NCBI RefSeq assembly: GCF_001544015.1
Contig: NZ_AP014924.1
Coordinates: 1,860,001 to 1,924,000, forward strand
Length of the DNA stretch: 64,000 bases
Direction: 5' to 3'
Source of the DNA: Limnochorda pilosa
GTDB lineage: Bacteria > Bacillota > Limnochordia > Limnochordales > Limnochordaceae
Shown here: positions 426 through 13,241 of the stretch, piece after piece
How the letters are laid out: every line of letters begins with the position of its first letter
Numbering within the stretch: position 1 is the stretch's first letter
Program-made: the position numbers and the translations under genes
Notes under the pieces: model-generated
Told to the model about the DNA's origin: nothing
Databases searched by the model: none
What the model saw: the letters and a program-made list of their open reading frames with translations, nothing else

Positions 426-2486
426 CTAGGACGCCCGCACGCGCGACGCCTCGATGATCTTCTCGGCGATGGCGGCGGGCACTTCCTCGTAGTGATCGAA
501 GGTCATCTCGAAGTCGCCCCGTCCCTGGGTCATGGATCGGAGGTCCGTCGCGTAGCGGAACATCTCCGCCTGGGGCACCAGCGCCTCGATCACCTGCATC
601 CCGCCATCGGGGTTCATGCCCAGGATCTTGCCGCGCTTCTTGTTCAGGTCCGCGATGCAGTCGCCCATGAAGGTTTCGGGAACCTCCACCCGCACCCGCA
701 TCACAGGCTCCAGGAGGACGGGGTCCGCCTGCTCGAAGGCCTTCTTGAACGCGAGGGAGGCGGCGATCTTGAACGCCATCTCCGAGGAGTCCACGGGGTG
801 GTACGAGCCGTCGGTGAGGGTGGTCCGCACGTCGACCACGGGGTACCCGGCCAGTACGCCCTCGGCCATGGTCTCCCGGACGCCCTTCTCCACCGCCGGG
901 ATGTACTGCTTGGGCACCGCACCGCCGAAGATCTTGTCTACGAACTCGAAGCCGCCCCCTGTGGGCAACGGTTCGAGCTCCAGGAAGACGTGACCGTACT
1001 GCCCGCGCCCGCCCGTCTGCTTCTTGTGTTTGCCCTCGGACTGGACCTTGGTCCGGATCGTCTCCTGGTAGGGCACGGTCGGGGTCCTGAGCTCCACGTT
1101 CGCCCCGAACTTCTCCTTCAGGCGGGAGACCACCACGTCCAGGTGCATCTCCCCCAAGCCCTTGAGCAGCGTCTCGCCGGTCACCGGGTCCCGCTCCACC
1201 CGGCAGGTGGGGTCCTCCTCAGCCAGGCGGCTCAAGCCGGAGAAGATCTTCTCCTCGTCTCCCCGCGCCACGGGTTCCGCCGCCAGGGCCAGCTTGGGCT
1301 CAGGGTAACGGACCGGTTCCAGGCGGACCTGAGCCGAGGCATCGCAGAGGGTATCGCCGGTCTGGGTGTGCTGGAGTTTCGCCACCGCGCCAATCTCTCC
1401 AGGGCCGAGGGCATCCACCGCCTCTTGCTCCTTGCCCCGGAGGACGTAGAGCTGGCCGATCCGCTCGTCTTTCTGGCGCACGGAGTTGCGCAGGGTCGAA
1501 TCGGAGGAGAGGACCCCTCGGTAGACCCGGAAGAGGGTGAGCCGGCCCACGTAAGGATCGGCCATGGTCTTGAAGACGTACGCCGCCGCCGGGCCCTCCC
1601 CCGGTGCGACGGCCTCCCCGCCCTCGACCAGGTTCGCCTGCGGCGCGACCTCCTGGGGCGAAGGAAGGAGCGTCCGGATGCCCTCCAGGAGCTGGTCGAG
1701 GCCGCCGCCCCCGACGGCGGACCCGCACAGGACCGGGACCACCGCGCCCTGGCGCACTGCCGCCGCCAGCCCCCGGCGCAACGCGTCGGCGCTCAGGGAC
1801 CCCTCCTCCAGGTACTTGGCGGTGAGATCGTCGTCGGTGGCGGCCACCGCCTCCTCCAGAGCTTCCCGCGCCTGGGTCACCGCCGCCGCCACCTCAGGCG
1901 GCACGTCGGCGGCCGTGGATCCATCGCCCTCCTGCAGGTAGGCGCGCCCCTCGAGGACGTCCACCACGCCCCGGAAGTCCTCGGCCTGGCCCACGGGCAC
2001 CTGGATGGGCGCCACCCGGTTTCCGAAGCGCTCCCGCAGCTCGGTGAGGCAGCGGTTGAAGTCGGCGTTCTCCCGGTCCATCTTGCTCACGAAGCAGAGC
2101 CGCGGCAGCTTCGCCTCGTCCGCGAGGCGCCAGACCTTCTCGGTGCCCACCTGCACCCCCGAGGCCGCCTCCACCAGGACCACGGCCCCTTCCGCGACCC
2201 GGAGCGCTCCCAGGACATCCCCAACAAAGTCAAAGTAACCGGGAGTATCCAGAAAATTGAACGTGTACGATTCCCAGGGGCAGGGAAGCACCGTCGTGTT
2301 CAGGCTCAGCCTGCGGCGTTGCTCCTCCGGGTCGTAGTCGCTCACGGTGTTGCCTTCCTCCACCGAGCCCTTCCGGCTGGTCACCCCGGCCCGATAGAGG
2401 AGCGCCTCGACCAGACTGGTCTTCCCCGCTCCCTGATGCGAGATGAACGCCACGTTTCGAATCCGGTCCGGTTGCACACGAGCCAA
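426..2486 (-). CDS. Elongation factor G-like GTPase (EF-G paralogue)
   Basis: This 686-residue protein has the full EF-G layout. The GTPase G1 loop is at about residues 17-24 (HQGAGKTS), G3 is DTPG, and G4 is SKMD where true EF-G has NKMD. Domains II-V follow and end in the EF-G-type tail with GRGDFEMTF and HYEEVP. The altered G1 and G4 loops and the lack of rpsL, rpsG or tuf neighbours mark it as one of the stand-alone EF-G-like paralogues of Firmicutes and Thermus rather than the housekeeping fusA. Its role is unknown, probably ribosome-linked. The start is TTG, chosen because a long AGGAGGGGG site sits 7 bases ahead. Confidence 0.85.
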   Translation of the reverse strand: MARVQPDRIRNVAFISHQGAGKTSLVEALLYRAGVTSRKGSVEEGNTVSDYDPEEQRRRLSLNTTVLPCPWESYTFNFLDTPGYFDFVGDVLGALRVAEGAVVLVEAASGVQVGTEKVWRLADEAKLPRLCFVSKMDRENADFNRCLTELRERFGNRVAPIQVPVGQAEDFRGVVDVLEGRAYLQEGDGSTAADVPPEVAAAVTQAREALEEAVAATDDDLTAKYLEEGSLSADALRRGLAAAVRQGAVVPVLCGSAVGGGGLDQLLEGIRTLLPSPQEVAPQANLVEGGEAVAPGEGPAAAYVFKTMADPYVGRLTLFRVYRGVLSSDSTLRNSVRQKDERIGQLYVLRGKEQEAVDALGPGEIGAVAKLQHTQTGDTLCDASAQVRLEPVRYPEPKLALAAEPVARGDEEKIFSGLSRLAEEDPTCRVERDPVTGETLLKGLGEMHLDVVVSRLKEKFGANVELRTPTVPYQETIRTKVQSEGKHKKQTGGRGQYGHVFLELEPLPTGGGFEFVDKIFGGAVPKQYIPAVEKGVRETMAEGVLAGYPVVDVRTTLTDGSYHPVDSSEMAFKIAASLAFKKAFEQADPVLLEPVMRVRVEVPETFMGDCIADLNKKRGKILGMNPDGGMQVIEALVPQAEMFRYATDLRSMTQGRGDFEMTFDHYEEVPAAIAEKIIEASRVRAS

Positions 2487-2636
2487 TGTCGGTCCCCCTC
2501 CTCCGAGCGACGATGCCCCTACGCGGTGCCGAGTCTCAACGCCCTCCGCCCGCCCCTCGTCCAGCCTTCTTCCTCTTCCTTGCTTCGTCCGGCCCGGCAG
2601 CTTTCCTCCTGGCGGGGCTTGCCAGCGATCCCCTCC

Positions 2637-3449
2637 TTAACCTGTCCTGCCGAGATAGGCCGCTTGCAGTTTCCTCAGATCGTCCCACGCCAGCCGCTTC
2701 TTGCCCGGATCCCGCAAGAGTGCCGCGGGGTGGAAGGTGGCCATGACCTCCCGCCCGTCCCGCTGGTACCAGACGCCGTGGTCGCGGGTCACGCTGAACC
2801 TCGGGTCGATCAGCCGCCGGGCTGCGGTGGCCCCCAGGCAGAGGACGAGTTCGGGGCGGATGAGCTCCATCTGCTCGCGGAGGTACGGGACGCACGCCTC
2901 CTGCTCGGCCGGTGCAGGAACCCGGTTGCCGGGCGGGCGGCACTTGACCACATTGGCGATGTAGACCTCCGATCGGCCGATACCGATGGCCTCCAGCATC
3001 TTGTCCAGAAGCTGCCCGGCCCGCCCCACGAAGGGGCGGCCTTCCAGGTCTTCCTGGGCCCCCGGGCCCTCCCCCACCAGCATGAGCGTGGCATGGGGGT
3101 TGCCCTCCCCGAAGACCACCTGCCGGCACCCCGCTCGCAGCGGGCACCGGCGGCAGCCCGCGGCCTCCTCGGCCAGGCGGGTCAACGCCAGCTCCCGTTC
3201 CTGGGGGGATAGGGCCGCACCTCGACCCGCGGGCGGCACCGCGGCGCGAGGGGCCACGGGCACCCCGGGCTTGGGTTGCACGGGGCCCGGTGAGGCTTCG
3301 GCCACGGCCAAGGGCAGGGGCTCCCCGAAGAGGGTGGCTTGATGGCGGGGGGAAGGGGCGGGCGCGGGCGCCTCCGGCGGTGCCTCCCCGGGAGACCGGG
3401 ACGAGGCCGGAGCGCCGAACAGGGAGAGCTGCTGGACGTCGTCGTGCAT
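2637..3449 (-). CDS. Type-4 (4Fe-4S) uracil-DNA glycosylase with long N-terminal tail
   Basis: The enzyme removes uracil from DNA. The catalytic domain spans about residues 85-265. Four cluster cysteines, C99, C102, C170 and C186, have the spacing of family-4 UDGs. Motif A is GEGPGAQED and motif B contains HPAALLR. Start ATG 3449 is supported by GGAGG seven to eight bases upstream and gives 270 residues, longer than the usual 190-220. The extra 85 residues are Pro/Ala-rich and look disordered. They carry QLSLF (residues 7-11) and QATLF (37-41), both close to the beta-clamp-binding consensus. The acylphosphatase gene lies 31 bases upstream, so the two are probably co-transcribed. Confidence 0.92.
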   Translation of the reverse strand: MHDDVQQLSLFGAPASSRSPGEAPPEAPAPAPSPRHQATLFGEPLPLAVAEASPGPVQPKPGVPVAPRAAVPPAGRGAALSPQERELALTRLAEEAAGCRRCPLRAGCRQVVFGEGNPHATLMLVGEGPGAQEDLEGRPFVGRAGQLLDKMLEAIGIGRSEVYIANVVKCRPPGNRVPAPAEQEACVPYLREQMELIRPELVLCLGATAARRLIDPRFSVTRDHGVWYQRDGREVMATFHPAALLRDPGKKRLAWDDLRKLQAAYLGRTG

Positions 3450-3480
3450 GGGATCCGCCTCCAGAGGGGTGCCCCGCGGC

Positions 3481-3804
3481 TCAGCGGATGCGGAACCACC
3501 CCGGCGGTTCGCCTTCCGCCTGCCGGTAGCCGGGCTCCACGGCCTCCACTTCCGCCCAGGGCGGGCCTTGGCGGAGCACCTCCAGGAACCGGTGAAGGGC
3601 ATCCTCGGGGCCCTCAGCAGCCAGACGCACCGTTCCGTCCGCGGCGTTGCGCACCCACCCGTCGAGCCCCAGGGCCCGCGCCTGCCTGGCGGCGAAGTGA
3701 CGAAAGCCGACACCCTGCACCCGGCCCCGCACGGTGACCTCCAACCGCAGGCGCCTGGGGCCCGAGCCCACCCTTCGAGACCCGGACGCGGGAATCCTCT
3801 CCAC
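3481..3804 (-). CDS. acyP: Acylphosphatase
   Basis: This small enzyme hydrolyses acyl phosphates. The family signature is clear: VRGRVQGVGFRHF holds the phosphate-binding loop and catalytic Arg, and GWVRNAADGTV holds the catalytic Asn. I prefer GTG 3804 as start because GGGGAGG lies nine bases ahead, giving 107 residues. An ATG at 3870 in the same frame would add 22 residues without a good ribosome site. The first 18 residues before the domain are not conserved. The gene is followed after 31 bases by the uracil-DNA glycosylase. Confidence 0.85.
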   Translation of the reverse strand: MERIPASGSRRVGSGPRRLRLEVTVRGRVQGVGFRHFAARQARALGLDGWVRNAADGTVRLAAEGPEDALHRFLEVLRQGPPWAEVEAVEPGYRQAEGEPPGWFRIR

Positions 3805-3904
3805 CCGGTGGCACCTCCCCGACGCCTTCCGCCGCGGGGGATCCGCCCAAGACGGGCCGTCGCCCTCCATGCCTTCAGCCCGGGCCCCCGCACACGGGCG
3901 GCGT

Positions 3905-5320
3905 TCAGGCCGATGGCTCGTGGGGACCGTCCGCCTCCCGCCGGCCCCACATCCCCGAGAGCGCCGCCCGTGCCGACCGGACGGCCAGACCCAGCGAGCT
4001 GCGGGCGCCGGAGAGCACGTCGTCCAGGGCGTCCACCACGTGGTCGATCTGCTCCCGCGTGACGATGAGCGGGGGCTCCAGACGTAACACGTTCGGGTTG
4101 TTCAGGGTGAAGACGGTCATGACGTGGTGGCGCCGGAGCAGCTCTCCCGCGACCAGGCTGGCCAGGTACTCCTGGGAGAGCCGGGCCGCGCCCCCGAAGG
4201 AGAGCCGGTTCACCCACCCCTGGGGCTCCTGGAACTCGAGCCCGATCAGCAATCCCCGACCGCGTACCGCCCGCACCGTTTCGGGGTGCCGGTCCCGCAG
4301 CGCGCCCAGGCGCGCCAGCAGGTAGGCGCCCAGCTCGGCCGCCCGCTGGTGAAGGTCCTCGCGCACGATGATGTCCAGGGCCGCCAGGGCCGCCGCGGCC
4401 GCCCGGCTGTTCCCGCCGAAGGTGCTGGTGTGGATCCGGCTTCGCTCCAGGCTGCCGAAACCCTTCTGCCAGACGCGCTCGGTGGCCACCGTGGCCCCGA
4501 TGGGCTCGACGCCCCCGCCCAACGACTTGGAAAGGCAAAGGAGGTCCGGGCGGACGTCCTCGGCCTCGCACGCAAAGAGGGTCCCCGTACGCCCCAGGCC
4601 GGTCTGGACCTCGTCCACGATGAGCAGGGTCCCCGTGCGCCGGCAGAGCTCCTCCGCCGTCTTCAGGTAGCCGCTGGGCGCCAGGATCACGCCGCCCTCG
4701 CCCTGGATCGGCTCGATGATGAAGGCTGCGGCGTCCCGGGGGGCCAGGGCCTCCTCCAGCGCCGCGGCATCGCCGAAGGGAACCGCCGTGCGGTCGGGGA
4801 GAAGCGGCTCGAAGGGCTCCTGGTACGCGGCCCGGCCGGTGACCGAGAGGGCGCCGAAGGTCTTCCCGTGAAACGCGTTGCGGCAGTAGACGAAGCGCTT
4901 CCGGCCCGTCGCGATGCGGGCCAGCTTCAGAGCCGCCTCCACCGCCTCGGCGCCGCTGTTGCAGAAGAAGGTGTGGCTGAGCTCACCCGGGGTGAGCAGG
5001 GCGAGGTTCTGCGCCAGAGCCGCGGTCAGCGGCGAGAGCCCGGTCTGGAGCAGGTTGGGCCGTTCCTCCACCCGACGTACGGCGTCCAGCACCTCAGGCG
5101 GGTTGTGCCCTAGGTTCAGGGCGCCGAAGTGAGCGGTGAAGTCCAGGTACTCCTGGCCGTGCTCGTCCCACAGAAGGCAGCCTTCGGCCCGCGTGTAGAC
5201 GCGGTCGAAGCCCACCAGTCCCATGAGCTGCACCAGCGCGGCGTTGCCGTACTGGCGGTGCAGCTCCCGGGCATCGGCCCGTCCCATGGCCAGGGCCTCA
5301 TCCAGGGTGATCCGATTCAT
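3905..5320 (-). CDS. Class III PLP aminotransferase, putrescine aminotransferase (PatA)-like
   Basis: This 471-residue fold-type I enzyme is probably an aminotransferase that moves the terminal amino group of a diamine or similar substrate to 2-oxoglutarate. Visible family motifs are NSGAEAVEAALK (about 121-132), NAFHGKT, EPIQGEGG (203-210), the PLP-contact motif DEVQTGLGR (236-244) and the Schiff-base lysine in SKSLGGG (K265). The pattern matches E. coli PatA/YgjG better than ArgD or GabT. ATG 5320 follows AGGAGAG. A related aminotransferase domain is encoded 300 bases upstream (5639-8197), so the two are paralogues on either side of a tRNA. The true substrate cannot be read from sequence. 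Confidence 0.85.
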   Translation of the reverse strand: MNRITLDEALAMGRADARELHRQYGNAALVQLMGLVGFDRVYTRAEGCLLWDEHGQEYLDFTAHFGALNLGHNPPEVLDAVRRVEERPNLLQTGLSPLTAALAQNLALLTPGELSHTFFCNSGAEAVEAALKLARIATGRKRFVYCRNAFHGKTFGALSVTGRAAYQEPFEPLLPDRTAVPFGDAAALEEALAPRDAAAFIIEPIQGEGGVILAPSGYLKTAEELCRRTGTLLIVDEVQTGLGRTGTLFACEAEDVRPDLLCLSKSLGGGVEPIGATVATERVWQKGFGSLERSRIHTSTFGGNSRAAAAALAALDIIVREDLHQRAAELGAYLLARLGALRDRHPETVRAVRGRGLLIGLEFQEPQGWVNRLSFGGAARLSQEYLASLVAGELLRRHHVMTVFTLNNPNVLRLEPPLIVTREQIDHVVDALDDVLSGARSSLGLAVRSARAALSGMWGRREADGPHEPSA

Positions 5321-5399
5321 GCTTCGCTCTCTCCTGTGACACCGCGGCCCGCCTTCCCGAGCGAGAGCCTCCTCACGGGGCTCGCCGACCGCCCGGCGG

Positions 5400-5428
5400 T
5401 TGACGCCTGCGGGGTTCGGTGGTAAAGT
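5400..5428 (+). promoter_or_regulatory. SigA-type promoter of the tRNA-Pro gene
   Basis: TTGACG and TAAAGT are separated by exactly 17 bases. The expected start of transcription is about 5435, two bases before the tRNA. Confidence 0.75.
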
Positions 5429-5436
5429 GGGTCCGA

Positions 5437-5514
5437 CGGGCTGTAGCGCAGCTTGGTTAGCGCGCCAGACTGGGGGTCTGGAGGTCCGGGGTTCAAATCC
5501 CCGCAGCCCGACCA
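5437..5514 (+). tRNA. tRNA-Pro (anticodon GGG)
   Basis: The gene folds as a full cloverleaf. The acceptor stem CGGGCTG pairs with CAGCCCG. The anticodon stem is CCAGA/TCTGG with loop CTGGGGG, giving anticodon GGG. The T arm is CGGGG-TTCAAAT-CCCCG. The 3' CCA is encoded. It has its own promoter and terminator and sits alone, pointing against the flanking genes. It would read CCC and CCU proline codons. Confidence 0.95.
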
Positions 5515-5516
5515 AT

Positions 5517-5543
5517 GGGGAGGCCCTTGAAAGGGGCCTCCCC
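5517..5543. terminator. Bidirectional terminator between tRNA-Pro and the aminotransferase-reductase gene
   Basis: GGGGAGGCCC pairs with GGGCCTCCCC around a 7-base loop, directly after the tRNA. AAGTCTT follows on the plus strand. It can also stop leftward transcripts of the 5639-9743 operon, which would leave the 3905-5320 gene without read-through. Confidence 0.7.
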
Positions 5544-5638
5544 AAGTCTTGCCCAGCCCCGTATCACTGCCCCGGACCCTCGGTAGCGTGTGGCAGTACT
5601 TCACCCTTCTCGGGGCGAGTCCTCTGCTCTGGCCTGTC

Positions 5639-8197
5639 TCATCGCGCCGCCCCGCGGGCGGCGCCGCCTGTCCGGGCCGCGCTCGGCTGAAGCCCCATCA
5701 CCCGGGCCCGCTCTTCCTGGAGGCGCTGCCAGTCCTCCGGGGCCAGGGGACGGTCGAAGCTCCGCAGCCAGGCGAGGCGGAAGCCATGGCGAGCGGCCAG
5801 AGCGCGCATCTCCTCGAGCGTGGGCATGGCCAGGTCCGAACCCAGGCTCACGTGCTCGTAGCGCTGTTCCAGGGCCAGCATCATCGTCTCGGACATGCAC
5901 GCGTAGGCCAGCCCCCGCTCGAAGCCGAAATCGAACCCCAGGTAGGGGCGACCCGGAACCTCGACCACGCCGCCGTCGATCACCAGGACGTCCGGCCGCT
6001 CGGCCTGGATCCTGCGGGCCACGTTGGGTGGCCGGGACATGTCGCAGACGACGGCGCCCGGCTTCGCGTTCTCCGGCCGCACGAGCTCCAGGGTGCTGGA
6101 GGTCGCGGTCACCACCACGTCCGCCTGGGCCAGGGCCCGGTCCACGTCCACGGTGAGCTCGAAGGAAGGGTGCGGGCTGCGCACGCTCGCCTCCGCAGCC
6201 ACCTGCCGCAGCCGGCGGAGGCTCGCCTCCGCCCGCTGCGGGTTACCCACCAGCACCATCCGGCCCGCCTCTTCGGCCAGGAGGATGGCCAGAGCTCGCC
6301 CGATGGAGCCCGTGGCGCCCACCACGGCCACGGTGGCCTGCCGGAGGGAGAAGCCTAGGCGGGCCGTCGCAAGGCTGACGGCTTCCCGGGCCGAGACCAC
6401 TGTGTAGCTGTTCCCCGTGGTGATCGCAACCCCGAGTTTCCTCAGGTGTAGACCGCCCCGGGTGACCACCGCCGTGTAGGCCCCCAGGCCCACGATGCGG
6501 GCCCCCCGGTCCCTGGCCAGCTCCACCGCCCTGCGAACCTCGGTCTCCGCCTCATCCCGCGGCATGGCCAGGAGCTCGGAGGTGGTGCGGGGCACGGCGA
6601 TGAACTCGCCGTGCGCGGTGCGTCCTGCCGCGGAGACGATGCGGGTCTCGCCCACCACCATCGGCTCCAGGAGATCGCTCCAGCGGTCGGCAAGTCGGGC
6701 AAGGGCCGACTCGTCGAAGGCGGCCAGGGAGCGGTCGTAGTCCGGGTAGTTGGCCAGGCTGAGCGGGTGGACCAGGAAGGCGAAGCGCCCTTCGCCGGGA
6801 TCACCCGAGGGACGGACCGGCCGCGGCGCGGCGACCCGGAGCGCTTCCGGGCTCCCCCAAGTCCCGCGGGCCGTGAGGGTCGCGGGCGGCACCCCCGCGA
6901 GGTGGGCCACAAGGCGGGCGGTGTCGCCCTGCTGCAGGAGGCTCAAGGTGCGGTCCAGCCCGTCGGCCACCTGGTCGCACACCTCGTCCGAGGCGATCAG
7001 GGGCGGCTCGATCCGGAGGACGCTGGCCCCGTTCAGGGTGGGCGCGATCCGGATCCCCTCCACGTTCAAGAGGTGGCTCGCCACCACGGGGGCCAGGGCG
7101 CCTTGCTCTCCCAGGATGCCCAGGAGGCTCTGGGGATGGGTGTCGCGGCTGGCCGCGAGCTCGATGCCGAGCATGAAGCCCCGTCCCCTCACCGCCCGCA
7201 GGGCCCTCGGGTAACGCTCCCGCATCGCCTCGAGCTTCGCCTTGAGGCGGGCTCCCTTGCGGGCCACCTCGCGCACCAACTCCTGGTCGTTGCGGGTCAG
7301 GAGGTCCAGGGAGGCGAGGCCCGCCCGGCAGGCGAGCCCGCCGCCCGCGAAGGTGGACGAGTGCTTCTCGGCAAAAGCGTCGGTGTAGGCCGCATCGGTG
7401 AGGAGGACCGCCCCGATGGGCATCAAGCCGCCGCCCAGGGCCTTGGCCAGGGTGAGCACGTCGGGGGTGACACCCTCCGCCTCGCAGGCGAAGAGGCGGC
7501 CCGTCCGCCCCAGGCCCGTCTGGACCTCGTCCACCACCAGCAGCACGCCGTGCTCCCGGCAGAGGCGCTGGGCGCCGGCCAGGTAGCCTGGCGGGGGCTC
7601 CACGATGCCCCCCTCTCCCTGGATCGGCTCCACCAGGAAGCAGGCATACTGCTCCGGGTTCGACCGGAGCGCGGCCTCCAGGGCCTCCAGGTCGCCGTAC
7701 GGGATGCGGTCGAAGCCGGGCAGCGGGGCGCCGAAGACCTTCTGGTACGCTTCTCGGTGGGTGGCCGAGAGGGCCCCCAGGGTCTTGCCGTGAAAGGCGT
7801 TGCCGCACGACAAGACGCCCATCCGGCCCGTCGCCGCCCGGCACGCCTTGATGGCTGCCTCGGTGGACTCGGCCCCGCTGCTGGTGAAGGTCACCGTGCG
7901 GAAGCCCGGGGGTGCCACGGCCAGAAGCCGCTCGGCCAGCTCGCCTGCCGCGTCCAGCGACGAGGGCTGGACGAAGCTCGGGACGCCTTCCGCTTCCGCC
8001 TGGTGCAGGGCCCGCCAGATCTCGGGCGGGTTGAACCCGAAGGGGAGCGCTCCGTACGCGGCCAGGAAGTCCACGTAGCGCCGGCCGGCCTCGTCCCACA
8101 GGGTGCAGCCTTCCCCCCGGACGAACCTCTTGTCCATCTCCAGGCGGTTCAGGAGCTTCCCCAGGTGGGGGTTGACGAACTGACTGAAACGGTCCAT
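5639..8197 (-). CDS. Fusion: class III aminotransferase + acyl-ACP reductase (AAR)-like domain
   Basis: This is an 852-residue, two-part protein. Residues 1-425 are a complete PatA-like PLP aminotransferase: SSGAESTEAAIK, NAFHGKT, EPIQGEGG, DEVQTGLGR at 223-231 and Schiff-base lysine K252 in AKALGGG. A Pro-rich linker (about 435-470) leads to residues 470-815, which resemble cyanobacterial long-chain acyl-ACP reductase: FLVHPLS at the start, TTGNSYT (593-599), a Rossmann loop VVGATGSIG (625-633), DGGVVEVPG (741-749) and YACMSE with C767. C767 aligns with the acyl-carrying cysteine of AAR (FACFAE). The likely chemistry is reduction of an acyl thioester to an aldehyde and amination to an amine, or the reverse; that is inference. 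ATG 8197 follows GAGAGGA. The gene is third in an operon with 8230-9189 and 9186-9743. Confidence 0.85.
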   Translation of the reverse strand: MDRFSQFVNPHLGKLLNRLEMDKRFVRGEGCTLWDEAGRRYVDFLAAYGALPFGFNPPEIWRALHQAEAEGVPSFVQPSSLDAAGELAERLLAVAPPGFRTVTFTSSGAESTEAAIKACRAATGRMGVLSCGNAFHGKTLGALSATHREAYQKVFGAPLPGFDRIPYGDLEALEAALRSNPEQYACFLVEPIQGEGGIVEPPPGYLAGAQRLCREHGVLLVVDEVQTGLGRTGRLFACEAEGVTPDVLTLAKALGGGLMPIGAVLLTDAAYTDAFAEKHSSTFAGGGLACRAGLASLDLLTRNDQELVREVARKGARLKAKLEAMRERYPRALRAVRGRGFMLGIELAASRDTHPQSLLGILGEQGALAPVVASHLLNVEGIRIAPTLNGASVLRIEPPLIASDEVCDQVADGLDRTLSLLQQGDTARLVAHLAGVPPATLTARGTWGSPEALRVAAPRPVRPSGDPGEGRFAFLVHPLSLANYPDYDRSLAAFDESALARLADRWSDLLEPMVVGETRIVSAAGRTAHGEFIAVPRTTSELLAMPRDEAETEVRRAVELARDRGARIVGLGAYTAVVTRGGLHLRKLGVAITTGNSYTVVSAREAVSLATARLGFSLRQATVAVVGATGSIGRALAILLAEEAGRMVLVGNPQRAEASLRRLRQVAAEASVRSPHPSFELTVDVDRALAQADVVVTATSSTLELVRPENAKPGAVVCDMSRPPNVARRIQAERPDVLVIDGGVVEVPGRPYLGFDFGFERGLAYACMSETMMLALEQRYEHVSLGSDLAMPTLEEMRALAARHGFRLAWLRSFDRPLAPEDWQRLQEERARVMGLQPSAARTGGAARGAAR

Positions 8198-8229
8198 GGA
8201 ATGTCCTCTCTCCCTCACAAGGACTGCTC

Positions 8230-9189
8230 TCAGTTGGCCGGGGCCAGCGTCTCTGGGCTGCCGGCTTCCCCGGGTTGGGGGGCCGTCCCGTCCAGGCCCT
8301 CCACCCTGGGCTCGAAGCCCAGGCGATCCAGCCACTGGAGGTAGTCGGCGGGGGTCATCTCCTCCCACCGCTTGCCCGCCAGGGCCACGATCAACGCCTC
8401 CATGACGTTGGTGCCGAAGGAGCGCCCCTGGAGGTTGGGCGTGGTGGTCACCAGGGTCCGCACGCCCCGCTGGCGGAGTTCCTCCACGTTCTGGCTCGTG
8501 ACCGTGTTGGTGAGGATCACCTTGCCCGACAGGGCGTCGGGCATGTACCGCCGGATGAAGTGGAAGTCACCGGCGATCACGTCCGCCCACCGGAAGATCC
8601 GGGCATGGCGGGGCGTGATCTTCTCCTGCTTGCCGCCCGTGGGGTAGAGCATCTGGAAGGGCAGTTGGGTCAGGACGGGCAGCAGGATGCGGGCCAGGAT
8701 CCGCAGGCCCCGAAGGCTCCTTATGGGGATGGGCACACCCAGGGCGAAGATCAGATCGCCGTAGATCGTCTCGCTGCCGGCGGCCTCCAGGGCCTCCGCC
8801 ATGCCGAAGCGGTCCACCCCCGAGACCAGCAGGACCCGGCGGCCCCTGAGCGGGAGCACCCCCCGCGCCGCCAGGCGCTCCACCACCCGCCGCTCCAGGG
8901 TGTTCTTGAGGCCCGAGCCGTCCACGATGGGCGTGCGCCGGGCCGCCTCGAGCAGGGGCCGGGCTTCACGGATCATGTAGCGGCGCTCGCCGGCCACCAG
9001 GTAGAGGTCGATCCCGCCCATGCCGAAAGCGTCCACCGTGCCGTCGAGATCCCGGATGAGCGCCACCGCCCGGGCCCGGTCGCCGTCGGTGCCGATGCGC
9101 TCCACCGTCACCTCCTCACCCGCCGCCTGGAAGGTGGCCCTGGAGTTCCTGCTGGACGATCCCAGGCTGACGCTGACGATCCGCTTCAC
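8230..9189 (-). CDS. Conserved protein of unknown activity (family sometimes labelled quinate 5-dehydrogenase)
   Basis: This soluble 319-residue protein opens with a short beta strand (IVSVSLGSS). It carries conserved-looking blocks ERIGTDGD, FGMGGIDLY (about 56-64), DGSGLKNTLERR, a segment beginning GRRVLLVSGVDRFG that may be a nucleotide-type fold, and TTTPNLQGRSFGTNVMEA near the end. I recall relatives in clostridial genomes annotated as quinate 5-dehydrogenase. I see no shikimate/quinate dehydrogenase signature here and would not trust that name. It starts inside the stop of the HTH gene (ATGA) and ends 32 bases before the aminotransferase-reductase fusion, so it probably works in the same process. 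Confidence 0.6.
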   Translation of the reverse strand: MKRIVSVSLGSSSRNSRATFQAAGEEVTVERIGTDGDRARAVALIRDLDGTVDAFGMGGIDLYLVAGERRYMIREARPLLEAARRTPIVDGSGLKNTLERRVVERLAARGVLPLRGRRVLLVSGVDRFGMAEALEAAGSETIYGDLIFALGVPIPIRSLRGLRILARILLPVLTQLPFQMLYPTGGKQEKITPRHARIFRWADVIAGDFHFIRRYMPDALSGKVILTNTVTSQNVEELRQRGVRTLVTTTPNLQGRSFGTNVMEALIVALAGKRWEEMTPADYLQWLDRLGFEPRVEGLDGTAPQPGEAGSPETLAPAN

Positions 9190-9743
9190 CGTTCCTCCCC
9201 CCTCGCGGCCTGGTCCGCCTTCAGGGCGCGGATCAGCCGCCGTACTTCCTCGGGGTCCACGAGCCGGTCGCCCTGGATGGGCGAGGTCCCGATCACGACC
9301 CCCACCACCTTCCGGCCCAGGACCGCCTCCATCAGCTTCACCCGCATGTCCGATCCGAGGAAGACCACTGCGTCCAGCTCCCGGGCCTGGGAGATGAGGG
9401 CCATGATCTCGTTCACCAGGTCGAGCCCCGAGCGATCGCGCACGAAGGACCAGCGCTCCGCGTCGGTCATGAGCAAGACCAGGTCCAGCCCTTCTTCGGC
9501 CGCGACCCGCTCCAGGTCGGCCTTGTTCGCGACGGGGAAGCCCACCAAGGCGATCCTCCTGCCCCGCCGGAGCTCCCCCATGGCCTCCAGCCGCGAGACG
9601 AAGGTGCGATCCGTGCCGAGCCGGTCGGCCACCTCCTGCTGGGAAGCGCCGCCGGCCCGCATCTCCAGGGCCTGATCCACCAGGCGGTGGAGGCGCGTCC
9701 GGTCGATCACCTTCTCCCCCACCCGGACCAGATCCACCCTCAT
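9186..9743 (-). CDS. HTH transcriptional regulator heading the aminotransferase-reductase operon
   Basis: The protein has 185 residues. An N-terminal helix-turn-helix (SQQEVADRLGTDRTFVSRLEA, roughly 31-51) is followed by an alpha/beta domain of about 125 residues (RIALVGFPVANKADLER onwards) that could bind a ligand; I do not recognise that part. ATG 9743 is preferred because the promoter at 9792-9820 would start the mRNA near 9785, leaving a short leader. GTG 9770 is in frame but lies only about 15 bases from that start. The operator-like repeat at 9764-9780 suggests self-control. The stop overlaps the next start (ATGA). Confidence 0.7.
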   Translation of the reverse strand: MRVDLVRVGEKVIDRTRLHRLVDQALEMRAGGASQQEVADRLGTDRTFVSRLEAMGELRRGRRIALVGFPVANKADLERVAAEEGLDLVLLMTDAERWSFVRDRSGLDLVNEIMALISQARELDAVVFLGSDMRVKLMEAVLGRKVVGVVIGTSPIQGDRLVDPEEVRRLIRALKADQAARGEER

Positions 9744-9763
9744 CGCCTCCCGTCCCCGGGACC

Positions 9764-9780
9764 TGTGCACAAAAGTGTGC
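9764..9780. promoter_or_regulatory. Candidate operator (inverted repeat) of the HTH regulator
   Basis: GCACA and TGTGC form a perfect inverted repeat around AAAG. The left half is itself part of the palindrome TGTGCACA. It covers about +5 to +21 of the predicted transcript, a normal place for a repressor block. Confidence 0.5.
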
Positions 9781-9791
9781 TCCGCCCGCCC

Positions 9792-9820
9792 ATTCTACAT
9801 CCTGGAAGGGTACGGCGCAA
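9792..9820 (-). promoter_or_regulatory. Promoter of the regulator / aminotransferase-reductase operon
   Basis: Read on the minus strand, TTGCGC (9820-9815) and TAGAAT (9797-9792) are separated by 17 bases. The predicted transcript start is near 9785. Confidence 0.65.
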
Positions 9821-9855
9821 GAGGGTGCTGCACGGGCGCCGGCCGGACCCTCTTG
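9818..9855 (-). terminator. Hairpin after lysC
   Basis: CAAGAGGGT and ACCCTCTTG are 9-bp perfect arms around a 20-base G+C-rich loop, 46 bases past the lysC stop. It overlaps the -35 element of the next operon. No T run follows. Confidence 0.45.
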
Positions 9856-9900
9856 GGCAGCGTACGCCTCAGCTCCGGTTGTCGGGCTGAACGAGGGGGA

Positions 9901-11154
9901 TCAGGGAAGCAGGGGGTCGCGGGCGCCCTCGGGCGCCAGCTCCTCCAGGTGGAAGGCCTTGTGGACCCGGCGCACGGCCTCCTCCGCCTGGGTTGCGTCG
10001 ATGAGGCAGCTCACCTTGATCTCCGAGGTGCTGATCACCTGGATGTTGATGCCCGCCTCAGCCAGCGCCCCGAACATGCGGGCCGCTACCCCCGGGTGGC
10101 TCATCATCCCCGCGCCCACGATGGAGACCTTGGCCACCGAGGCATCGTCCTGAACGGTGGTGGCGCCCAGCTCACGCGCCACCTGGTCCACGATCTCCCG
10201 GCTGCGGGCCAAATCGTCGCGGGTCACGGTGAAGAGCAGGTCGGTCACCTGCCGTGCCTTGGTGGTCTGAACGATCATGTCCACGTTGATCTCCTCGGCC
10301 GCCAGCGCGGCGAAGAGCCGGTGGGCCACCCCCGGCCGGTCGGGCACGTCCACCACCACCAGCTTGGCCACGTTCCGGTCGTGGGTGACGCCTACCACCA
10401 CGCGCGCGTTCTCCATGGTCGAAACCCCCCTCACCTCGGTACCCGGGCCATCCCCGAAGCTGGACCGCACCCGCAGGACCACCCCGTACTGCGCGGCGTA
10501 CTCCACCGCCCGCGGCTGCAGCACCACCGCCCCCAGGCTGGCCATCTCCAGCATCTCGCCGTACGAGATCCACTCGAGGCGGGAGGCGTCGGGAACCAGT
10601 CGAGGATCCGCGGTGTAGACCCCGTCCACGTCGGTGTAGATCTCGCACCGGTCCGCCTGCACCGCCGCCGCGAGTGCCACGGCCGTGGTGTCGGACCCGC
10701 CCCGCCCCAGGGTGGTGATGTCGTCTCCGGGCGTGATCCCCTGGAAGCCGGCGACGATGACAATCCGGCCCTGCTCCAGCTCCCGCAGGATCCGGTCGGT
10801 CCGGACCTCCTGGATGCGGGCTTTCATGTGGATGCCGTCGGTGAGGATCCCGACCTGGGCGCCGGTGAGGCTGATGGCCTCCTCGCCCAGCTCCTGGATG
10901 GCCATGGCCAGGAGGGCGATGGAGACCTGCTCGCCCGTGGCCAGGAGCATGTCCATCTCCCGCCGGGGCGGGCGGGGGCTGATCTGGTGCGCCAGCTCGA
11001 TCAGGTGGTCCGTGGTGTCGCCCATGGCCGAGACCACGGCCACCACCGGGCGCCCTGACCGGTGCGCGTCCACGATCCTTGCCGCCACGTTCCGGATCCG
11101 CTCCGGGTCGGATACGGAGCTGCCGCCGTACTTCTGCACCACGATGCCGTTCAC
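9901..11154 (-). CDS. lysC: Aspartate kinase with ACT domains
   Basis: This 417-residue enzyme phosphorylates aspartate, the first step to lysine, threonine and methionine. The N-terminal motif [21 protein letters not shown] and the [14 protein letters not shown] loop mark the amino-acid kinase fold. Residues about 260-405 form two ACT domains that normally bind lysine and/or threonine. GTG 11154 follows GGAGGAGGGG. It ends the hom-thrC-thrB-lysC run, although a hairpin in the 93-base gap before it may separate its expression. Such single-chain enzymes can also make the small beta subunit from an internal start; I did not find a convincing site for one. Confidence 0.95.
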
Positions 11155-11183
11155 GATGCCCCTCCTCCGTCCGGCGCACGAAG

Positions 11184-11222
11184 CCGGCTCCCGCGGGCCA
11201 CCCCAGCGGACCGGGAAGCCGG
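11184..11222 (-). terminator. Hairpin between thrB and lysC
   Basis: CCGGCTCCCG pairs with CGGGAAGCCGG (one bulged base) around an 18-base loop. It could terminate or attenuate part of the transcript before lysC. Confidence 0.35.
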
Positions 11223-11247
11223 GCGCACCCCGCCCCTGCTCCTTATC

Positions 11248-12174
11248 CTACGCTTGGCCCAGCGCGCCCTCGCCCGCCGGACGGCATGCCAGGGGCCGGG
11301 CCGGCTCGCCAGCAGCCTCGAAGGCGGCCGCCATCGCACCGGCCACGGCCTCCCCCAGGCCCGGCGGCGCCAGGGCCACCACGGCGGGCCCCGCTCCGGC
11401 GAGGGCTGCGCCCAGGGCGCCGGCTCCCATGGCCGCCTCCAGGGCCTCGGGCGCGCCTGGGACGTGGGGCAGGCGGTGGGGCTGGTGCAACCGGTCCTGC
11501 ATGGCGATGGCCAGCAGGTCGTGACGACCCAGGGCCAGGCTGGCCACCAGCGCCGCCGAGGCCGTCAGGTTGAAGACGGCATCCTGCCGCGGGACCTGGT
11601 CGGGCAGTACGCCCCGGGAGGCTTCGGTGCTCCACCGCCGATCCGGTAGGGCCAAGGCCACGTCCAGGGGCGGTGGGTCCAGGCGGAGGAACCGGCGCGC
11701 CCCGGGCAAGAGGACGGTGAGTCCGCCCGCGAGGGCAGGCGCCGCATTATCCCCGTGGCCCTCCAGTTCCCACGCCAGGGCCAGGAGCTCGTCCGGCGGC
11801 AGGGGCCCGCCCAGGAGCCGCTGCGCCGCCACCAGGCCGCCCACCGCCGCGGCCGCACTGCTTCCCAAGCCGCTCCGCAGGGGGATGTGGTTCGTGCACC
11901 TCAGCCGCAGGCGGGGCGCCCGGCCCCGCACCTGCCGCCAGAGCAGGCAAGCGGCTTGAGCCACCCGGTTCGATGCGTCCCCGGGCAACTCCTGCTCGCC
12001 TTCCCCTTGGACCTCCACCTCCGCCGTGGCGCTGGCGGGGTCCTCCTCTTCGCCCAGGACCTCCATCTCCACCTCGTTGACCAGGTCCAGGGCCAAGCCC
12101 AGCGCGTCGAAGCCGGGCCCCAGGTTGGCCACCGTAGCCGGCACGCGCACGTGAACGGGTCCGGCGGCCGTCAT
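11248..12174 (-). CDS. thrB: Homoserine kinase
   Basis: This GHMP-family kinase (308 residues) makes O-phosphohomoserine for threonine synthase. The N-terminal [19 protein letters not shown] and the ATP-binding [16 protein letters not shown] (about 98-113) are diagnostic. The C-terminal motif [13 protein letters not shown] is also typical. ATG 12174 overlaps the thrC stop (ATGA), so translation is coupled. Confidence 0.95.
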
Positions 12175-13241
12175 GCCAGGAGGTCCTCCAGCGCACCCGT
12201 CACAGCGCCCAGCTCGTCGGGCACCACCTGGGGCGGCGGGGCTTCGCCCACGGCCCGGTCCGGGTCCTTCAGGCCGTGGCCTGTGAGCACGCAGACCACC
12301 CGCTCGCCGCCCCGGAAGAACCCCTCCCGGGCCAGCCGAGCCACCCCCGCCACCGAGGCGGCCGACGCGGGCTCGCAGAAGACCCCTTCCAGGGCCGCAA
12401 CCCGGTGGTAGGCGGATAGGATCTCCCCGTCGCTCACGGCCTCGATCCGTCCGCCCGAGGCGTCGCGGGCCTCCACCGCCCGCTGCCACGAGGCGGGGTT
12501 CCCGATGCGGATGGCGGTGGCCACCGTCTCGGGGTCGGGGACGGGGGCTCCCCGCACGATCGGTGCCGCCCCCTCGGCCTGGAAGCCCAGCATGCGGGGC
12601 AGGCGGTCGATCTGGCCTCGGGCCTGGTACTCGCGGAAGCCCATCCAGTACGCGGTGATGTTGCCCGCGTTGCCTACGGGCAAGGCAACGAACTCGGGCA
12701 CGCAGCCCAGCTGGTCGCAGACCTCGAAGGCCGCGGTCTTCTGGCCCTCGAGCCGGTGCGGGTTGACCGAGTTGACCAGCCGGATGGGAAGGGCCGCCGT
12801 GAGCTCGCGCACCAGGCGGAGCGCGGCGTCGAAGTTTCCCTCCACCTCCAGCACCCGGGCGCCCAGGTGGACCGCCTGGGCGAGCTTCCCCCGGGCCACG
12901 GCGCCCTTGGGCACCAGGACCACGGCCCGCATGCCGGCCCGTGCGGCGTAGGCTGCGGCCGAGGCCGAAGTGTTCCCCGTGGAGGCGCAGGCCACGATCC
13001 TCGCCCCCGACTCCAGGGCCAGGCTGACCGCGACCGTCATCCCCCGGTCCTTGAAGGAGCCCGTGGGGTTCGCACCCTCCACCTTCAGGTAGAGGTCCAC
13101 CGGCGCCTCCAGGGCCCGGGCCAGGCGCGGGGCCGGCATCAGGGGCGTCCAGCCCTCGGCCAGGGTGACCACCGGCGTCCGGTCGGTGACCGGCAGGTAG
13201 GCCCGGTAGCGCTCGATCACGCCGGGGTTGGGCTCATGCAT
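12171..13241 (-). CDS. thrC: Threonine synthase
   Basis: This PLP enzyme of fold type II (356 residues) converts O-phosphohomoserine to threonine. The PLP lysine is K64 in GSFKDRGM. The phosphate-binding segment [12 protein letters not shown] and the ending [13 protein letters not shown] match the short bacterial class. The start overlaps the end of hom by 8 bases and the stop overlaps thrB by 4. Confidence 0.95.

Follow-up and report, generated by a model that had tools for sequence, protein, structure and literature searches.

Enzymes that pair a class III aminotransferase with a reductase of acyl thioesters are known from PtTamH of tambjamine, KecF of koreenceine and PigE of prodigiosin biosynthesis, and a related reductase, the acyl-acyl carrier protein (ACP) reductase (AAR), is known from cyanobacteria. 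According to published reports, the transaminase (TA) domain of TamH accepts C7-C14 aldehydes and C294 is the active residue of AAR in S. elongatus (PMC9594044), while for PigE there is evidence of both thioester reduction and transamination, even though the purified enzyme alone failed (PMC8341465). Here, a related locus is described from a stretch of 64,000 nucleotides of the Limnochorda pilosa genome (NZ_AP014924.1, positions 1,860,001 to 1,924,000; hereafter the window), which carries a gene for a helix-turn-helix regulator, a gene for a conserved protein without a described function (the middle gene and middle protein) and a gene for an aminotransferase-AAR fusion enzyme. We consider it rather probable that the locus is the Limnochordia version of an old module, consisting of the regulator, the middle protein and AAR, that makes a primary amine, and that the middle protein is a paralogue with the AAR fold.

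The three genes are confirmed on the minus strand in this order of transcription: the regulator (9186-9743, ATG start, 185 aa), the middle gene (8230-9189, GTG start, 319 aa) and the fusion (5639-8197, ATG start, 852 aa). The stop of the regulator overlaps the start of the middle gene by four bases (GTGA, 9186-9189), and 32 nt separate the middle gene from the start of the fusion, so that a preliminary description of this DNA was right that the genes overlap or nearly touch. The span that it listed, 5639-9820, reaches some 75 bases farther upstream than the regulator gene. The same description also assigned the genes one promoter and one terminator, which are left unsupported because a consensus scan of 5400-10000, covering only the consensus types scanned, found neither a minus-strand sigma-70-like site nor a terminator-like site. 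The middle gene is not a chance frame, since it was kept in 20 of 20 other genomes searched, at 54-78% identity.

The fusion enzyme has the architecture of the TamH/KecF type, with a class III aminotransferase at the N-terminus (residues 1-431, 6905-8197) and an AAR-like thioester reductase at the C-terminus (residues 480-852, 5642-6760), both encoded in one minus-strand frame. The whole protein matches PF00202 at 1.8e-91; the closest proteins in the PDB to the aminotransferase domain are PigE (4ppm, 6e-85) and then putrescine aminotransferase (about 7e-76), and the reductase domain matches PigE at 1e-29 and the cyanobacterial AAR 6jzq at 1.5e-21. Alignment also places the two catalytic residues of this enzyme type. 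K252 (minus-strand codon 7442-7444) falls opposite the lysine in the LSKSLSGG motif of PigE, which is the pyridoxal phosphate lysine of the family, and C767 (minus-strand codon 5897-5899) aligns with C294 of S. elongatus AAR, a GATGSIG loop being present as well. The AAR cysteine motif and GA[TSG]GxIG occur in 38 of 38 aligned AARs. The fusion is a further member of an already known kind of enzyme, the new part being the module around the middle family, and to judge from its sequence it most likely yields a primary amine from acyl-ACP or acyl-coenzyme A (CoA). C767 of the reductase would accept an acyl group carried by ACP or CoA, and reduction with NAD(P)H would give an aldehyde, which the fused aminotransferase would convert into the amine. 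In most relatives, the reductase has a gene of its own and the aminotransferase is encoded elsewhere.

Two observations might suggest a cluster for secondary metabolites of the prodigiosin, tambjamine or koreenceine kind: the PigE equivalog NF053554 is the best NCBIfam match of the fusion (573.5 bits), and the domain order of the fusion is also that of KecF and TamH (PMC6498172, PMC9594044). However, the PigE match falls short of its 850-bit cut-off, no polyketide or fatty-acid synthase gene was recognized by eye in 3000-13000, and the distribution of the module is that of a core gene, which together make this explanation very improbable. The reductase domain likewise scores 92.9 bits (2.3e-26) against TIGR04058, the long-chain acyl-ACP reductase equivalog, below the cut-off of 449.7 bits.

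The distribution of the middle protein is broad. It was present in all 21 of the close genomes, its own being one of them, in 70 of the 72 class genomes, in 291 of the 398 genomes from Bacillota, in 49 of the 51 genomes of an Armatimonadota sample and in 11 of 60 genomes from the phylum of a Candidatus Aquicultor genome, mostly as one copy per genome in these tables; Thermoanaerobacter, Moorella and Caloramator are among the named carriers. The middle gene is duplicated in tandem at locus L030, on contig C114 of genome G450 and on contig C21 of genome G529, and at L030 the second copy occupies the usual place of AAR. A search of plasmids with the middle protein gave no match.

Co-occurrence across the 398 Bacillota genomes, which are related and thus non-independent, was scored at thresholds of our own choosing (E <1e-20 for AAR, 1e-75 for the aminotransferase). 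The middle gene and AAR were both present in 237 genomes, with the middle gene only in 54, AAR only in 5 and neither in 102, so that AAR seldom occurs in the absence of the middle gene (5 of 242). AAR and the aminotransferase were both present in 201 genomes, with AAR only in 41, the aminotransferase only in 5 and neither in 151 (odds ratio 148; 55 of the aminotransferase frames were counted as fusions, nearly all by frame length), and the control gene panD gave odds ratios of 2.5 with AAR and 2.3 with the aminotransferase. The 54 genomes with the middle gene and no AAR all lack the aminotransferase at 1e-75 as well, because none of them is among the five aminotransferase-only genomes. These patterns support a functional link between the middle gene, AAR and the aminotransferase. 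The preliminary description had suggested a possible amine or lipid pathway, and an amine-forming pathway is plausible because the aminotransferase tracks AAR across the 398 genomes and because the fusion shares its catalytic residues with enzymes that turn thioesters into amines (PMC9594044, PMC8341465).

The same preliminary description held that the middle gene is constantly paired with a dedicated regulator and with the fusion enzyme. In the 80 named loci, which are the best 80 of 554 relatives, are biased toward near relatives and include many contigs that end early, the recurrent gene order is dusB, regulator, middle gene, AAR, greA and lysS, with a dusB-like gene at 44 loci, the regulator at 60, AAR at 50, greA at 58, lysS at 53 and coaX at 29. 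The names dusB, greA, lysS and coaX were assigned by eye from the sequences. Where the flanks were long enough for comparison by profiles, the regulator lay upstream in 56 of 75 loci, and AAR was adjacent downstream in 42 of 70. In Bacillota, 99 genomes were listed for both genes, and in 96 of these 99 the middle gene is directly followed by AAR (median gap 36 nt); the two listings cover 150 genomes for the middle gene and 149 for AAR, out of 237 that have both. The usual neighbor of the middle gene is therefore a free-standing AAR; only 8 of the 72 class genomes have the fusion in that place, and a constant pairing with the fusion did not hold.

An alternative explanation makes the middle protein a housekeeping enzyme in its own right, which is encoded near AAR because both genes belong to an old shared block (dusB ... 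greA-lysS) and not because they act in one pathway. The near-universal, mostly single-copy occurrence of the middle gene, its presence without AAR in 54 of 291 genomes and the block itself, with the greA family, lysS and dusB at the counts just given, are in keeping with such an origin. Yet AAR hardly ever occurs without the middle gene, and the pair is adjacent outside the block both in the window (5639-9743) and at locus L073. In the Armatimonadota sample, AAR was found in 49 of 51 genomes and was adjacent to the middle gene in 24 of 48, a comparison that covered adjacency only. Divergent AAR-like proteins also persist in the AAR slot at loci that lack a recognizable AAR, as described below. 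We regard the housekeeping explanation as unlikely, albeit one to be taken seriously. The window operon itself no longer lies in the usual dusB/greA/lysS block: the frames upstream of it (9901-13241) resemble, by eye, aspartokinase, homoserine kinase and threonine synthase.

Fused and free reductases were compared within the class. One match spans both domains in at least 39 of the 72 class genomes. Besides the eight genomes in which the fusion adjoins the middle gene, it lies about 90-105 kb away in three genomes of family f3 and otherwise on other contigs, and a free AAR adjoins the middle gene in at least 22 genomes of the class. None of the fusion-bearing class genomes, at least 39 in number, was seen with a free AAR beside the middle gene; the fusion thus seems to replace the free AAR.

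Among 19 AAR-less loci that were examined, 12 had a frame in the slot (245-376 aa), one of them a second copy of the middle gene, and 10 of the 12 matched the AAR profile weakly (E <0.01), these E values coming from a 12-sequence set with filters off, so that only the strongest are secure and the weakest may be due to chance. In the slot protein of locus L050, the catalytic cysteine is replaced by serine. This suggests that the slot retains an AAR-like partner after catalysis has been lost. Divergent, apparently inactive AAR-like proteins were noted between the middle gene and greA at ten loci, L050 included.

The preliminary description found no trustworthy function for the middle protein, an assessment that stands. 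Among 68 aligned homologues, there was no convincing Pfam or NCBIfam family, the matches being scattered over one to four members each, and neither Pfam Shikimate_DH nor an NCBIfam shikimate/quinate dehydrogenase matched any of the 68. No PHROGs family was found for the middle protein, and a PDB profile search with the family returned chance-level matches only (best E 0.058, a chaperonin). The motif VDGSGLK of the middle protein may resemble the NTDG motif of shikimate dehydrogenase. RefSeq names the family 'quinate 5-dehydrogenase', and we suspect that it is the same as the Deinococcus family deino9.00587. That family, 'annotated as quinate 5-dehydrogenase' and present in 33 Deinococcus genomes, is placed among uncharacterized conserved families in Table 3 of a published report (PMC9425974). 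By description only, the two are alike in being conserved, uncharacterized and outside known domain models. The middle protein is a core gene product in large bacterial groups with no described family, which represents an unusually wide annotation gap.

An AlphaFold2 model of the middle protein, built from the 68 sequences with a predicted local distance difference test (pLDDT) score of 89, has AAR 6jzq as its nearest solved fold (Z 14.6, root-mean-square deviation 4.4, 250 aligned residues, 12% identity), the next matches being the TAD domain of carmabin at Z 13.6 and glutamate dehydrogenases at about Z 10. In a Foldseek search, sugar-binding proteins ranked higher by E value, at low TM-scores. 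In this predicted model, the AAR fold extends over the full length of the protein. The AAR motifs are missing: the GxxGxxG or GxGxxG loop occurs in 0 of 68 members, and no alignment column has cysteine in more than 29 of 68. At the presumed position of the AAR loop, D126-R127-x-G129 is found in 68 of 68 proteins, and among 32 invariant residues of the family many are polar (D35, D90, K95, E99, D126, R127, D145, D208, R256, S257, N261), which would suit a ligand-binding or active site better than a dead enzyme. The middle protein would then be a distant AAR-fold paralogue incapable of cysteine chemistry. Because its invariant residues include Asp, Arg, Lys, Glu, Ser and Asn, it may bind or convert an anionic, perhaps phosphorylated, ligand, which is probably connected with the reductase, as if the middle protein were its partner, its activator or the preceding enzyme. 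The preliminary description supposed that the middle protein handles the substrate or product, which it may do, although 54 of the 291 genomes that carry it have no recognizable AAR.

Several observations weigh against the proposed amine-forming module. When profiles of the middle family and of AAR were compared with each other, the outcome was uninformative (probability 0.3, Neff 2.5) and gave no sequence support for homology, and the kinship is a best match and unproven because it rests on a predicted fold. The preliminary description would have counted as a refutation that homologues of the middle gene are mostly away from aminotransferase/AAR genes, which holds for the aminotransferase and does not for AAR. 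These homologues keep close to AAR, as the counts of 96 of 99, 42 of 70 and 24 of 48 indicate, whereas the aminotransferase gene is mostly at a distant chromosomal site or on a different contig. Of 70 named loci, 5 have an aminotransferase no more than 3 kb downstream; in this count, the sequences of L010 and L027 break off within the aminotransferase gene. The neighbors of free aminotransferase genes vary, and no constant partner was found in 40 regions (20 free-standing, 20 fusion) where aminotransferase or fusion genes lie away from the module. The 54 middle-gene genomes without a recognizable AAR and the 41 of 242 AAR genomes without an aminotransferase at E 1e-75 point in the same direction, as does a Caloramator genome in which the aminotransferase is present (2.9e-99) and the AAR slot holds a degenerate protein. 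The chosen thresholds and the relatedness of the genomes also temper the co-occurrence counts.

In favor of the module, the middle gene, an aminotransferase, a small SRPBCC/START-like protein and AAR are separate consecutive genes at locus L086. The three genes after the middle gene lie at 942-3813 counted from its start. The SRPBCC/START name was given by eye; the protein so named may bind lipids and act as a third partner.

A short substrate has also been considered, for instance malonyl-ACP, which would be converted through malonate semialdehyde to beta-alanine and so replace PanD. The genome of the window lacks panD, and coaX, a name given by eye, is near the module in 29 of 80 loci. However, panD is also present in 139 of the 201 genomes with both AAR and the aminotransferase, an association that is positive (the odds ratio of 2.3 noted above) and not complementary. 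Beta-alanine formation as a general function was rejected on this count, and PanD replacement is very improbable.

The regulator has an XRE-type helix-turn-helix at residues of about 15-54, which matches Pfam HTH_31 at 4.9e-6, just over its cut-off; HTH_3 was found in 46 of 50 members of the regulator family, with E up to 0.1. An AlphaFold2 model (pLDDT 93) confidently shows an alpha/beta C-terminal domain, for which no solved structural relative stood above background in the PDB (best Z 7.1). The regulator probably controls its own operon. Downstream of the operon, beyond a plus-strand tRNA-Pro (5437-5514), the window encodes a free-standing class III aminotransferase on the minus strand (3905-5320, 471 aa, PF00202 at 3.6e-98), which is 46-48% identical to the fused domain, falls in the same subfamily and has a homologue downstream in the sister genome (L009); it is probably related. 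Farther on (2637-3870, minus strand), frames resembling a family-4 uracil-DNA glycosylase and an acylphosphatase were recognized by eye. The source genome is a single contig of 3.82 Mb.

In a wider reading, which we put forward tentatively, a core thioester reductase paired with a new family of the same fold and a different active site would be common to most Bacillota and nearly all Armatimonadota and, in Bacillota, would feed an undescribed housekeeping route to primary alkyl or lipid amines, the amine step having been fused to the reductase in several lineages. If so, acyl amines, fatty or otherwise, would count among the core metabolites of groups for which open PMC searches returned none described. 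No description of the module was found in the open PMC literature, subscription papers being outside the search. The near-obligate couplings of the middle protein with the reductase and of the reductase with the aminotransferase provide a concrete hypothesis that is testable in tractable thermophiles.

Compared with the described systems, the fusion resembles PtTamH and KecF in having the aminotransferase first and AAR last, a catalytic cysteine and an expected course from thioester through aldehyde to amine (PMC9594044, PMC6498172), a likeness drawn from published descriptions. It differs from them in that they belong to natural-product clusters of Pseudomonadota, whereas the window fusion stands behind a regulator and the middle gene in a lineage that has AAR as a core gene. 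PigE (4ppm) is the closest solved relative of both fusion domains and has the same two activities (PMC8341465), but its domain order is reversed and the fusion stays below the NCBIfam PigE cut-off. The cyanobacterial AAR (6jzq/TIGR04058) shares its fold, catalytic cysteine and GxxGxxG loop with the reductase domain of the window, which misses the TIGR04058 equivalog cut-off, and the same cyanobacterial enzyme is the closest solved fold to the middle protein as well.

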